DNA from: Planctomycetaceae bacterium | GTDB lineage: Bacteria > Planctomycetota > Planctomycetia > Pirellulales > Pirellulaceae | Direction of reading: 5' to 3' | Assembly: GCA_002685655.1 (NCBI GenBank) | Contig: NYXM01000106.1 | Span: 1-9,845 of the forward strand | Length of the DNA stretch: 9,845 bases | Program-made: the position numbers and the translations under genes | Notes under the pieces: model-generated | Seen by the model: only the letters and a program-made list of their open reading frames with translations | What the model was told of the DNA's origin: nothing | The model's database searches: none | Part shown: positions 1,825 through 9,725 of the stretch, in pieces | How the letters are laid out: the number at the start of each line of letters is the position of its first letter | Numbering within the stretch: the stretch's first letter is position 1

Positions 1825-2946
1825 ATGAACGTACGACGAACGCTGTGGACTGTGTTCGCGGGCGTGGCCATCGCGGCAACCGGTTGCTCGGGGTTACAAC
1901 ATCAAGATCACAACTTGCCGCCAGCAGAACGGCTAATGAGTCCGGGCCCCGGTGTTGGTGGTCCTGGCCCTGGCGTCATACCGGCTAGTTTTCCGGGAAT
2001 GCGTCCAGGGATGCAGATGGGGCCAGGCGGACCTCCGATGATGCCGATCACTTCAGCTGCGCCCCAAATGGGGGCGACCATCCAGTTGCTATTCCATCGC
2101 CCCGAAGCCATGCAGGTTCGCTGGGACGTTTCTGGTGTTGGTCAATTCGATTCGGACCCCATGATCCTGCCCGGACGGAAGAACTTTCCGGAAGGTGGAA
2201 TCTTCCGTCTGAAGCTGACCAGCATCCCGGGACGTGAAGGTGTCGAACTCTATCCAACGCTGGAGGTTGGACCGACGACACCGCGGACGGCGGCTTACTT
2301 GGCGCACAACGCGATTCCGATTCAGTTCACCGAGGAAGATTTCGATCAGGTCCTGAGCGGCAACTTTGTTACCAAGGTCATCTACCTGCCTGATCCGGAA
2401 TTCCAGGAGATGGCGTTGGCGGGTGTCGAAACATTGGTCAGCACACGGCTTGATCCCGGTGTCGATCCGATTGTGGAAGCCGATCGCCGTGGTTCCATCA
2501 TGGCAGTCATTCGACTCGGCAACAAAGATGTCGAGATGCCAGGGGCCGCTAGTACGGATCAGGTCATGGCCGCATCGTTCAACAATCAACCCCCGGCTCC
2601 GCTCGGTGCCATGCTCCCACCGGGCGGCGGAGCTTTGATGTCACCCTATGTTTCCGGAGTCACGGCACCTCAGTACGGAATGCCAATGACGGGAACACCA
2701 ATCGGTCTGCCGGGACCGCCCCATATTCCTTTGGGTGCTCCTGCCGGCTTCCAGCGTCACGTCATCAACAACCACACTCGGGTACACATGCCCGGTCCAA
2801 CGGAACAGTTCAAAGTCAACATTCGACAGAGGCCCGGCTACAGCTATCCGAAGCCACCGAGCCACATGTCGATTCGCGAACAGAACATCTACCCCAGTAT
2901 TCCCTTCACTCGTCCGAATAACAATCGGGTTGAAGTGGTCCACTAA
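1825..2946 (+). CDS. Gly/Pro/Met-rich envelope lipoprotein with a core shared with the next gene
   Basis: A 373-residue protein, starting at ATG 1825 behind a strong purine-rich ribosome site. Residues 1-21 are a lipoprotein signal: MNVRR, a hydrophobic run TVFAGVAIA, then the lipobox ATGC with Cys21 as the lipidated residue. Residues about 38-82 are a low-complexity linker of Pro, Gly and Met (PGPGVGGPGPG, then a Met-rich GMRPGMQMGPGGPPMMP). The folded core is about residues 84-237, with MQVRWDVSGVGQFDSDP, FRLKLTSIPGREGVELYPTL, IPIQFTEEDFDQVLSGNFVT, KVIYLPDPE and DPIVEADRRGSIMAVIRLG. The tail from about 240 is again Pro/Gly/Met-rich and ends in a basic, Asn/Pro-rich stretch. The core is clearly related to the product of the gene at 3074, so the two are paralogues. 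I know of such proteins only as hypothetical planctomycete proteins; an envelope or surface role follows from the lipobox, the precise function is unknown. Confidence 0.85.
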   Translation: MNVRRTLWTVFAGVAIAATGCSGLQHQDHNLPPAERLMSPGPGVGGPGPGVIPASFPGMRPGMQMGPGGPPMMPITSAAPQMGATIQLLFHRPEAMQVRWDVSGVGQFDSDPMILPGRKNFPEGGIFRLKLTSIPGREGVELYPTLEVGPTTPRTAAYLAHNAIPIQFTEEDFDQVLSGNFVTKVIYLPDPEFQEMALAGVETLVSTRLDPGVDPIVEADRRGSIMAVIRLGNKDVEMPGAASTDQVMAASFNNQPPAPLGAMLPPGGGALMSPYVSGVTAPQYGMPMTGTPIGLPGPPHIPLGAPAGFQRHVINNHTRVHMPGPTEQFKVNIRQRPGYSYPKPPSHMSIREQNIYPSIPFTRPNNNRVEVVH

Positions 2947-2957
2947 TGGATAGAAAA

Positions 2958-2991
2958 CACGAGAGTCCGCCGAGCCGAGCGGAGACTCGTG
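2958..2991 (+). other. Hairpin upstream of the terminator, with loop complementary to the terminator loop
   Basis: Arms 2958-2970 and 2979-2991 pair over 13 positions apart from two central mismatches (outer CACGAG/CTCGTG, inner TCCGC/GCGGA), around the 8-base loop CGAGCCGA (2971-2978). It starts 11 bases after the TAA of the lipoprotein gene. No T-run follows, so it is not itself an intrinsic terminator. Its loop matches the loop of the terminator at 3007-3044 as an exact complement, and 2971-2982 is a 12-base exact complement of 3016-3027. Confidence 0.65.
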
Positions 2992-3006
2992 CAGTTTGAA
3001 ACGTCG

Positions 3007-3044
3007 AATCAGGTCCCGCTCGGCTCGCGGGGCCTGATTTTTTT
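3007..3044 (+). terminator. Strong intrinsic terminator after the lipoprotein gene
   Basis: The arm AATCAGGTCCCGC (3007-3019) pairs with GCGGGGCCTGATT (3027-3039) over 13 bp with one T-G wobble, around the 7-base loop TCGGCTC (3020-3026). The descending arm runs into seven T residues (3038-3044). This is the best terminator in the window. It stands only 29 bases before the GTG of the next gene, which belongs to the same family as the gene before it, so it either ends the first transcript or acts as a partial terminator within one operon. Confidence 0.85.
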
Positions 3045-3073
3045 GTCACTCGACATCCACACCAAGGTCTCTC

Positions 3074-3877
3074 GTGCAGAACAGCCTATTCGGTATTGGA
3101 GCGTCCGTCGCTCTGCTGCTGGCGAGCACCACACTGGCGCAGGCGCCGCGGCACTATGGTCATACGATCAACCTGCCGCCCGGCACCATCGCCCAAGGCC
3201 AGCTGGCTCATATTCCCGCACTTCGCGGTTATGTGCAGCCCGTCGAGATCATTGCACCCAAAGGGGTGCGTGTTTCTGTGCGGCAACAAGGGCGATTCGC
3301 AACAGCGCCCACGGGGCCTTTGCGAATGGGATTGTTCATTGGACCGGTTTACCATCTACAGGTGACGAACATTCCATTCCAGGAGGGCTATGAAGTCTAT
3401 CCGACGATTGAATTGGTGAATCGCCTCTATCCGCCGGAAGGTTCCAAGATTCGCTTTCCTATTCCAATCCAGTTGACACAGGAAGAACTGGAGATGGCCT
3501 TGTCCGGGCGGTTTGTGACGCGTGTGATCTACCTGGAGGACTCCGCCAACGCACTCGGACAGCGCTCGGACCCCGAACTGCAGGACTACTTCGAGACACC
3601 TTCGAATGAAGATCCGTTGCTGGTTGCAGACCGTTTGGGACGACCGATGGCGATTCTGCGAATGGGGTCTCGCGTTCCGGATTTCGAGCGCGGGAATGTC
3701 GGCGGTATTGGAGATCCGCCGGTCACAGTCTATCCAGCCCAGTCAGGCGCGGCGGAAGTTCGCCCAACCGATGCGGCCGCCGCAATTGAACGATCACCAG
3801 CGAACTTCCCGCGCCTTCCACTCCAACCTCGGCGGTCTCCGATCACCTTTCCCGTGGGGTATCCACAAGCACGATGA
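3074..3877 (+). CDS. Secreted paralogue of the upstream lipoprotein core
   Basis: A 267-residue protein with GTG start at 3074, chosen because AAGG lies at 3064-3067 with a six-base spacer and because it gives a signal peptide (MQNSLFGIGASVALLLASTTLAQA, cleavage after Ala24 at A-Q-A). No lipobox is present, unlike its neighbour. The mature protein (about residues 55-205) aligns by eye with the core of the 1825 product: VRVSVRQQGRF against VRWDVSGVGQF, YHLQVTNIPFQEGYEVYPTIEL against FRLKLTSIPGREGVELYPTLEV, PIPIQLTQEELEMALSGRFVTRVIYLED against AIPIQFTEEDFDQVLSGNFVTKVIYLPD, and EDPLLVADRLGRPMAILRMG against VDPIVEADRRGSIMAVIRLG. The C-terminal 60 residues are Pro/Arg-rich and probably disordered. 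The TGA overlaps the ATG of the next gene, so the two should be translated together. It is an unrecognised periplasmic or surface protein; function unknown. Confidence 0.8.
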   Translation: MQNSLFGIGASVALLLASTTLAQAPRHYGHTINLPPGTIAQGQLAHIPALRGYVQPVEIIAPKGVRVSVRQQGRFATAPTGPLRMGLFIGPVYHLQVTNIPFQEGYEVYPTIELVNRLYPPEGSKIRFPIPIQLTQEELEMALSGRFVTRVIYLEDSANALGQRSDPELQDYFETPSNEDPLLVADRLGRPMAILRMGSRVPDFERGNVGGIGDPPVTVYPAQSGAAEVRPTDAAAAIERSPANFPRLPLQPRRSPITFPVGYPQAR

Positions 3878-5247
3878 GACGCATCCTGGCTAAGCAGTTC
3901 TTAGAAGTGAACGCGCAGTTCGCAATTCAGAATCGCTGGATTTCTCAGCGTATTTCCGGGAGTCGACTGTGCAATCATTTGCAAACCCCGCTGAGCATCA
4001 TCTTGTCGGCGTGGTTAACGCGATCTTGGCTGCCCTTAGTCGCTTGTGCCACGGTTCTGTTTTGTTCCTGCAAAACAATCACACCGATCACTCCTTCTCC
4101 GGACTCGGTGAACCGCTTGAGTCCGCCCAGGGTTTCAAACGACCTCATGAGTGCGCAACCCACGTCGCGCCCCCGTTGGCCGATCCAACAGATCAGCAAT
4201 GCCACGGTGGTGAGACCGCCGACTGGGCATTCATGCGCCGCCTGTCAGCCACGCGGTTCCTATCCGCCATCGCTGCCAACCATGCCGCACGACGGAGGCA
4301 TGTCACATCGGTCAAAGCCGTGGCAATATGGGCCATGGCCGGCTGACGAATACATCTGCAATGGTGGAGACAACGATCTGTCCGTTCAGGTCGCCAACGA
4401 CTGGTCGGTGATCGGTCTTCACGAAGGGGACACTGTCGCGCATTACGATACCTTGGAGGGCCAAGTTGTCGTCGAACCGACGAACGAAGTCTGTCTGTAT
4501 GCGCCGCGATTTGCCTCGGTTCGAAAAGTGACGGGTGTGATTCTGCACGAGCAACATCTGCGATCGGCTGGATTGGAATTGCCTGTACATCTGGCTCAGA
4601 GCGGCGAAGCAGAGTCGGCCACGACCGTTTTGCAGCCCGTGCAGCCTGGCCGCAACCTCGCAATCAGCTCGGCCAATCGGTTTCGCGACAAAACGCGACC
4701 GGGTGGTCTGGAGAATCTCCAGGCTGCGGTCGGTGCCCAGGGCGGATTCTTGCCGTTCGAGGATTTCCTGATCATCCGGAGCGGTCTCTTTGATAACAGC
4801 GAAAAGGCTCGCTTGTCCGAACAGCTGCAAGCCGCTTACACATGGAGTCACGATGCATCAGTACAAGTTATCGTGGACAACATCGACGTGTTGGAGGTGT
4901 CGAGCGAAAACGGGATGCAGTCGGTCTATACGTACGAGATGCCTGATGGCAAGTCGCGTCTACGATTGGTCAAAGTCGCCTCAAAGCAAAATGCCAAACC
5001 GGGCGAGACGGTTGACTTCACGATTCGCTTCGACAACGTTGGCGATCGTGTGATTGGCAACGTGACCGTGATCGACAACCTCAACACACGGCTTGAACAT
5101 GTTCCAGACAGCCAGGAGTGTACGCTCAAAGCCGAATTCTCCTCGCCTGACAACGAGCACGAGACCGCGGTGCTGCGTTGGGAAATCACCGATCCCATGA
5201 AAGTGGGCACGGGTGGTGTGATCCGCTTCCGCTGTCGCGTTCGGTAG
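3874..5247 (+). CDS. DUF11-domain (OmcB-like) envelope protein, probable lipoprotein
   Basis: A 457-residue protein whose ATG overlaps the previous stop as ATGA (3874-3877), the reason for choosing this start. The signal region is unusual: about 40 mostly polar residues come before the hydrophobic run LVACATVLFCSC, with Cys66 as a possible but non-classical lipidated residue. A TTG at 4003 would give a normal-length signal (MSAWLTRSWLPLVACATV) and may be a second or true start. Residues 67-150 are a Pro/Ser-rich linker with a CAAC pair (121/124). Residues 158-220 hold the module DEYICNGGDNDLSV...GDTVAHYDTLEGQVVVEPTNEVCLYAPRF, which I associate with planctomycete DUF11 proteins. The last 97 residues (about 361-457) are the DUF11 domain, with PGETVDFTIRFDNVGDRVIGNVTVIDNL and LRWEITDPMKVGTGGVIRFRCRVR. 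DUF11 also occurs in the cysteine-rich outer-envelope protein OmcB of the related Chlamydiae, so a structural or scaffolding envelope role is likely, but the exact role is inferred. Confidence 0.8.
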   Translation: MRRILAKQFLEVNAQFAIQNRWISQRISGSRLCNHLQTPLSIILSAWLTRSWLPLVACATVLFCSCKTITPITPSPDSVNRLSPPRVSNDLMSAQPTSRPRWPIQQISNATVVRPPTGHSCAACQPRGSYPPSLPTMPHDGGMSHRSKPWQYGPWPADEYICNGGDNDLSVQVANDWSVIGLHEGDTVAHYDTLEGQVVVEPTNEVCLYAPRFASVRKVTGVILHEQHLRSAGLELPVHLAQSGEAESATTVLQPVQPGRNLAISSANRFRDKTRPGGLENLQAAVGAQGGFLPFEDFLIIRSGLFDNSEKARLSEQLQAAYTWSHDASVQVIVDNIDVLEVSSENGMQSVYTYEMPDGKSRLRLVKVASKQNAKPGETVDFTIRFDNVGDRVIGNVTVIDNLNTRLEHVPDSQECTLKAEFSSPDNEHETAVLRWEITDPMKVGTGGVIRFRCRVR

Positions 5248-8778: not shown

Positions 8779-8799
8779 CGCGACGGCCGCCAACCAAAA
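8779..8799. repeat. 21-bp direct repeat, copy 1
   Basis: It begins CGCGACGGCCGCC and ends AACCAAAA, and is identical over 21 bases to 9705-9725. It starts five bases after the aminotransferase TAA. Read on the minus strand it is TTTTGG...CGCG and follows the hairpin at 8801-8855 directly, just as copy 2 follows the hairpin at 9728-9753. Confidence 0.85.
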
Positions 8800-8855
8800 G
8801 AGCAGGCGCACTCCGTGTGCCGTAGCGGTAGACGGCACACGGAGTGTAGCCCGCT
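8796..8855 (-). terminator. Large palindromic element with 15-bp perfect stem, likely terminator of the minus-strand membrane-protein gene
   Basis: Arms 8809-8823 (CACTCCGTGTGCCGT) and 8832-8846 (ACGGCACACGGAGTG) pair perfectly around the loop AGCGGTAG. After a small internal loop, AGCAGGC (8801-8807) and GCCCGCT (8849-8855) pair with one mismatch, so the stem is about 21 bp. On the minus strand the hairpin ends in CTCTTTTGG, a short T-run, which fits a terminator for the gene ending at 8948. From memory, GGCACACGGAGTGT-type palindromes are repeated many times in Pirellula-type genomes, so this may be a dispersed element that also serves as a terminator. Confidence 0.65.
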
Positions 8856-9704: not shown

Positions 9705-9725
9705 CGCGACGGCCGCCAACCAAAA
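9705..9725. repeat. 21-bp direct repeat, copy 2
   Basis: Identical over 21 bases to 8779-8799, in the same orientation and 926 bases away. Its A-run overlaps the T-run of the minus-strand terminator at 9722-9753. The two copies flank the membrane-protein gene. Confidence 0.85.

Follow-up and report, generated by a model that had tools for sequence, protein, structure and literature searches.

The window, by which we mean the whole stretch of 9,845 nucleotides that was analysed, carries three neighbouring genes on its forward (+) strand around the spacer that is the subject of this work. In the open reading frame list, gene 1 (1825..2946, +) encodes a predicted lipoprotein of 373 amino acids, gene 2 (3074..3877, +) a protein of 267 amino acids, and gene 3 (3874..5247, +), the 5′ end of which overlaps the 3′ end of gene 2, a protein with a DUF11 domain according to a Pfam scan. 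The same scan assigns no Pfam family to gene 1, and its best named protein match is a hypothetical protein from a Pirellulaceae metagenome-assembled genome (MAG) (99%). The lipoprotein assignment rests on what we take to be a lipobox, recognised by eye, while the gene 2 product, again by eye, reads as secreted from its N terminus. An earlier note on this DNA had called genes 1 and 2 paralogues, and protein comparison agrees (35% over 137 amino acids, E value 7e-19). Between them, the gene 1 stop codon lies 11 bases 5′ of a first hairpin (hairpin 1; 2958..2991, +), which is followed by a linker (2992..3005, +), a terminator hairpin (3006..3040, +) and a T-run (3038..3044, +). From the T-run it is 29 bases, as the earlier note had counted, to the GTG start codon of gene 2 at 3074, and AAGG at 3064..3067 (+), part of a CAAGGT common to the two closest relatives of the locus, is the likely Shine-Dalgarno sequence of gene 2. 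No sigma-70-like site was found in the spacer or anywhere else in the window, by a scan that planctomycete promoters may escape.

The sequence, the folds and a pattern search agree on the presence and position of the two tandem hairpins. Hairpin 1 is built from 6 base pairs, a 2x2 internal loop and 5 base pairs, closed by loop 1 (CGAGCCGA; 2971..2978, +). The second hairpin, recovered both by folding and by a terminator scan, has the GC-rich stem and T-run of an intrinsic terminator, with 14 pairs (the most among 20 terminator-like sites in the window), the seven-base loop TCGGCTC (3020..3026, +) and seven T. Loop 1 pairs with this terminator loop and its closing base (TCGGCTCG, 3020-3027), such that the exact complementarity pointed out in the earlier note extends over 8 of 8 bases. 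Within the window the match is longer still, since CGAGCCGAGCGG, at 2971-2982 (+), recurs at 3016-3027 as its exact reverse complement; of the 7 matches to this motif at up to 2 mismatches in the window, these two sites are the only ones with zero mismatches. The isolated 8-mer loop-loop duplex is calculated at -13.8 kcal/mol with loop penalties left out, and a contact of 7-8 bases would be compatible with a kissing complex of the two finished hairpins. Loop-loop pairing is shared with the L2-L3 interaction of purine-type riboswitches and with ColE1 RNAI/RNAII, in which 7-base loops pair fully, although sequence and role are unrelated.

Such complementarity between neighbouring loops is beyond chance. 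A scan of 227,683 bases (the window and loci L001-L037) for hairpins no more than 40 bases apart, in which complementary loop bases were counted together with the closing pairs, returned 412 pairs, and at least 7 complementary loop bases were present in three of them: the window (9), L001 (8) and an unrelated pair in L011 (7). L002 is missing from these three; the spacer scan assigned that same locus a 3-base loop. When pairs of hairpins were drawn at random, each time from two different gene 1 - gene 2 spacers, at least 7 complementary bases occurred in 9 of 29,760 combinations.

The 37 loci come from a contig scan with the gene 2 protein alignment, the closest being L001 (79% identity) and L002 (78%), and the comparison of orthologous DNA accordingly comprises three sequences; 14 further relatives of 70-90% identity (P0122-P0130 and P0133-P0137) are represented as protein only, and viral contigs contained no relatives. 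Both hairpins, and the complementarity of 8 out of 8 loop bases, are kept in all three orthologues. Loss of the complementarity from a retained terminator, the outcome that the earlier note had set against regulation, was looked for in L001 and L002, and both have kept it. Loop 1 and the terminator loop are in fact identical in the three loci, and the starts of the 12-mers are 45 bases apart in each. The 12-base match proposed in the earlier note fares less well: exact in the window, it is broken in L001 and L002, where an A faces a C beside the 8-base core. Neither loop varies, and there are thus no compensatory loop changes among the three orthologues. This identity stands against extensive divergence at fourfold-degenerate sites, where pairwise identity is 0.40-0.48 and 65 of 288 shared sites (0.226) are the same in all three, with gene 1 of L001 and L002 shortened to 380 codons for the count; at this silent-site rate, the chance that all eight loop 1 bases agree is 0.226^8 = 7e-6. 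Silent sites have diverged far and yet the loops are identical, so the loops, on this comparison, are apparently under constraint.

The stems offer a more ambiguous picture. That of hairpin 1 differs between the orthologues with pairing mostly kept, and two of its pairs have changed on both sides, one reading U-A, C-G and A-U across the three loci and the other C-G and U-A, with the third orthologue unpaired. Over all local helices, 89.7% of cells are paired and 3 pairs have changed on both sides, values matched by 40 and 72 of 500 shuffles, respectively; the covariation of the local stems is therefore suggestive and not decisive. In the alternative long-range register, in which the two hairpins pair with each other, 16 of 28 pairs are invariant, 11 fail in at least one sequence and none covaries, and the longest unbroken helix is the eight-base loop core. 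This register was aligned without gaps, whereas the copies have one more base next to loop 1 than the repeat described below; the outer pairs of the register are therefore understated, and the comparison of fold energies is the fairer one. A further candidate, pairing of 2958-2965 with the start region of gene 2 (3069-3076), forms part of the minimum-energy fold of 2947-3075; it is absent from L001 and L002 and was set aside as chance.

Where the two hairpins came from is indicated by a repeat that is dispersed through the family. The motif CGAGCCGAGCGG was searched in eight genomes with the reversed motif as a control, and in most of them it did not rise above that control; the clearest excess was in genome G149 (26 against 9), which also holds five exact inverted pairs of the motif, 45-48 bases apart. 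Locus L172 in G003 was first taken for a coincidence, and it led on to the repeat family. The unit in G149 has the form AGTAGGTCCCGC-GAGCCGA-GCGGGACCT, about 24 bases of spacer, then AGGTCCCGC-TCGGCTC-GCGGGACCTACT, with the inverted copy ending in CCTACT. At up to 3 mismatches G149 contains 28 such palindromes, and the reversed pattern none. Among nine inverted doublets that could be aligned, the left GTAG and the right CTAC are each present in 8 of 9, and the doublets end in TACT or TACG without a T-run. Searched at up to 3 mismatches in 241 genomes, the 25-base unit with its CTAC end occurs in 15, with none for the reversed control in any genome; two of the 15 are G001 and G002, the genomes of L001 and L002, whose copies are without the tag. 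Matches number 164 in G063, 100 in G076 and 80 in G196, and several genomes carry other loop types on the same repeat stem.

By its anatomy, the dispersed G149 repeat is apparently a GTAG-tagged element of the REP/REPIN type. In the sections of the literature concerned, a REPIN is defined as a REP doublet forming a hairpin (PMC3116915), its anatomy is described further (PMC6006769), and GTAG repeats are reported for Planctomycetes too (PMC3733652); the G149 repeat shares with these elements, as far as those sections describe them, the inverted palindromes, the outer GTAG/CTAC tags, the short spacer, the many copies and the long hairpin. Its 7-base loops differ from the loops of 2-3 bases in many families and of 9-15 bases in one that are given in part of PMC3733652. 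A partner transposase of the RAYT type, as expected for GTAG REP/REPINs, was not found for this repeat at 50 Y1 loci, out of 95 matches in total. Of the 12 genomes searched, 11 have Y1 transposase genes, and some of these genes lie close to other GTAG palindromes; none of the 50 loci is convincingly associated with the GTAGGTCCCGC palindromes of this repeat; 3 of 50 match it at 3-4 mismatches, against a background, no lower, of 9 per 411,118 bases. The Y1 genes near other GTAG palindromes are at L292, L304, L290 and L285 (e.g., GTAGCCTGGGGCACCGCCCCAGG in L292), a layout that is expected of REP-associated transposases. Separately, a second dispersed long palindrome, CGAGCCGAAGGCGACGG...CCGTCGCCTTCGGCTCG, is present in several copies in G063, among other places at G063:C2:33089-33150.

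A covariance model (R2) trained on the nine G149 doublets only was used to search 38 loci (227,683 bases). Its three best matches are L001 (E 1.3e-13), the window (1.4e-10) and L002 (3.6e-10), the tool's E-values being rough, and the next, in L003 and L005, are at 7.7e-4 and weaker. The three top matches recur on the opposite strand, the element being nearly symmetric, and they cover model positions 1-81 of 81, i.e., two inverted units with a short spacer. The L001 terminator is the 25-base repeat exactly; the L002 terminator has 1 mismatch, and the window terminator, by eye, 1 mismatch at the same base. From this comparison, hairpin 1 and the terminator are evidently homologous to the two inverted palindromes of the dispersed family repeat, hairpin 1 corresponding to the first (GTAG-side) REP unit with its tag lost and the terminator to the second, inverted unit. 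That two unrelated hairpins came to look alike by accident is extremely improbable: short GC-rich palindromes are frequent here and one unrelated 7-base pair did turn up among the 412, but the match to an independently defined repeat at E values of 1e-10 to 1e-13, kept in two relatives, speaks strongly against it. The loops would then be complementary because the hairpins descend from an inverted doublet. For the kissing-loop or attenuation reading of the earlier note this means that its observations hold, the hairpins and their loop complementarity being conserved, while the complementarity itself is explained by inverted-repeat descent and not by attenuator design. The complementarity probably has an origin simpler than attenuation. 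That the loop contact plays a regulatory part is a live possibility.

The folds of the repeat and of the window copy differ in kind. In 9 of 9 G149 doublets, the long hairpin beats the local hairpins by 10-34 kcal/mol, while the long fold loses to the local hairpins by 1.1 kcal/mol in the window, 11.8 in L001 and 4.6 in L002; the balance in the window is within the error of the model (0.5-1.1 kcal/mol). The long hairpin is no longer preferred in these three loci, and the window copy is therefore classed as derived from the GTAG-type REP/REPIN family and not as a working member of it. Relative to a GTAG REP/REPIN, it is without tags (GTAG is absent from the window, L001 and L002 alike), is without the preference for the long hairpin and has a T-run, and copies of its type are single in the two orthologous genomes. 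The T-run is present in L002 and interrupted in L001 (TTCTTTT), the terminator of which was not flagged as such by a crude spacer scan. By comparison, then, the doublet in the three diverged orthologues is untagged, is followed by a T-run and has ceased to favour the long hairpin, and we read the loss of the tag, the gain of the T-run and the switch of fold as domestication into a hairpin plus an intrinsic terminator, the T-run having presumably replaced the CTAC end of the ancestral doublet.

The same energies bear on a working attenuator, in which the 12-base pairing (2971-2982 with 3016-3027) would act as an antiterminator competing with hairpin 1 and the terminator, switched by some signal such as a ribosome reaching the end of gene 1. 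The long-range fold is indeed the minimum-energy structure of nascent window RNA ending at 3027-3036; it is likewise favoured in L002, at 0 to 6 bases past loop 2, and marginally in L001, at 2 to 4 bases past loop 2. Once the window terminator is complete the two folds are within about 1 kcal/mol, the terminator winning narrowly, and RNA that extends as far as the start of gene 2 prefers the long fold by 8 (-57.5 against -49.5 kcal/mol); also in favour, the gene 1 stop codon is 11 bases upstream of hairpin 1. Against this, the pairing is interrupted beyond 8 bases in L001 and L002, the finished terminator clearly wins in both, and the readthrough fold of the window needs the start-region pairing that both lack. 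Nor does the window have any Rfam match at gathering score, the one sub-threshold match being to a microRNA family (E 0.52), far below that family's gathering score. We regard such an attenuator as unlikely.

The element is real, and is best explained as a domesticated REPIN-type repeat turned terminator; we consider it quite probable that a GTAG-type REP doublet (REPIN) survives as a fossil in the spacer, domesticated as the boundary element of an operon of genes 1, 2 and 3. We propose that transcription from upstream of gene 1 would mostly stop at 3038-3044, that leaky readthrough would supply less of genes 2 and 3, and that hairpin 1 and the terminator may protect the 3′ end of the gene 1 mRNA. 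With lower confidence, the nascent terminator loop might pair with loop 1 (7-8 bp, kissing), tuning or stabilising the terminator, and loop 1 could already make this contact as the terminator loop emerges, ahead of the synthesis of the descending arm.

Alternatively, transcription may end at some other place, and the element may chiefly stabilise the 3′ end of the gene 1 mRNA or act as a barrier to its processing. Part of PMC3733652 presents roles of REPs in mRNA stabilisation and in transcription termination as hypotheses, a precedent for such a function. The T-run, however, follows the second hairpin in 3 of 3 copies (interrupted in L001) and in 0 of 9 dispersed doublets, and it would be superfluous for a pure stabiliser, which makes this account improbable.

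The complementarity may also be something that the repeat passively left behind: hairpin 1 and the terminator would do the work, and the loops would never meet. This is a serious contender whose chances we put somewhat short of even. Inverted doublets have complementary loops by construction, and the loops are also nearly invariant in the nine G149 doublets, where 96.8% of loop cells are paired and there is no covariation. What this account leaves unexplained is the persistence of the loops in L001 and L002: silent sites are near saturation, loop 1 is unchanged though its stem has changed, and their genomes (G001 and G002, MAGs that may be incomplete) show no second copy above background, so that gene conversion from sister copies is unlikely. 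Given that loop 1 and its partner do not vary, while no more than 65 of 288 silent sites are the same in all three orthologues, the loop-loop contact may still matter. A stronger version, in which the kissing complex was selected after the long hairpin had been dismantled and the REPIN became a regulatory switch for the relative amounts of two paralogous secreted proteins, is put forward tentatively, as possible and rather doubtful.

Among known systems, the BIME/REP elements of E. coli are also comparable: a 2001 study by Espeli is said to describe BIME-associated transcription attenuation there, and a 1987 study by Newbury reportedly describes REP effects on mRNA stability. As proposed here, inverted palindromes lie inside operons and affect downstream expression; the difference is that the second palindrome of the present element is shaped as a canonical intrinsic terminator. 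The nearest functional precedent found, by analogy and as far as the metE example in PMC10653944 is described in the sections concerned, is the corrinoid riboswitch, where an L5-L13 kissing loop favours the terminator or the antiterminator, such that kissing of two hairpins bears on terminator formation. In that riboswitch, the kissing partner is a loop belonging to a ligand aptamer, and in the metE example P13 and the terminator are separate; here no aptamer is known, and it is the loop of the terminator that acts as partner. The open-access papers searched included none joining a REPIN with an intrinsic terminator, or a REP with kissing.

If the domesticated repeat is the right reading, living relatives show both ends of a route by which a dispersed miniature repeat can become a host terminator, as doublets that fold into one long hairpin and as copies that fold into a hairpin plus a terminator. 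More generally, where the loops of adjacent hairpins are exactly complementary, an inverted repeat doublet may lie behind them, and later conservation offers a test of whether such a loop contact has gained a function. If planctomycete transcription signals are indeed little studied, the element points to repeats as one source of operon punctuation in this group.

A wider survey places the spacer in context. Relatives of gene 2 occur in 230 of the 241 genomes of the family of G002, and of 127 loci taken, 112 have a recognisable gene 1 - gene 2 pair and 15 do not, a few of the 112 perhaps being counted twice with different boundaries. A crude scan of these spacers found a hairpin in 110, at least two hairpins in 76 and a terminator-like hairpin in 47, from which it follows that some punctuation between genes 1 and 2 is common. 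At least 7 complementary loop bases are present in 4 of the 112: the window, L042 (the L001 locus), L063 and L044; L043 (the L002 locus) scored 5, the scan having picked a smaller loop. The complementary loops of L063 and L044 differ in sequence from those of the window. In L063, the spacer holds a hairpin together with an inverted copy of part of that hairpin (about 19 bases, by eye), which gives exactly complementary loops, and in L044 (and L003), from G149, it holds an independent and different GTAG-type doublet, GTAGCGAAAGTCGCCAAG... / CGAAGCTCTTGGCGAGCTTCGCTAC, whose unit is matched 20 times in the forward and 21 times in the reverse direction across that genome. Repeats thus seem to have entered the gene 1 - gene 2 spacer more than once.

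Some further repeats were noted along the way. A related palindrome, GTAGGTCCCTCTCGGCGAGAGAGACCT, with a weak R2 match, lies at L003:5106-5132, directly after the apparent stop codon of the gene 3 homologue. Elsewhere in the window, and by eye, a direct repeat, CGCGACGGCCGCCAACCAAAA, is found at 8779-8799 and 9705-9725, and a long inverted repeat, GCACTCCGTGTGCCGT ... ACGGCACACGGAGTGT, at 8808-8847, 3′ of an aminotransferase gene.
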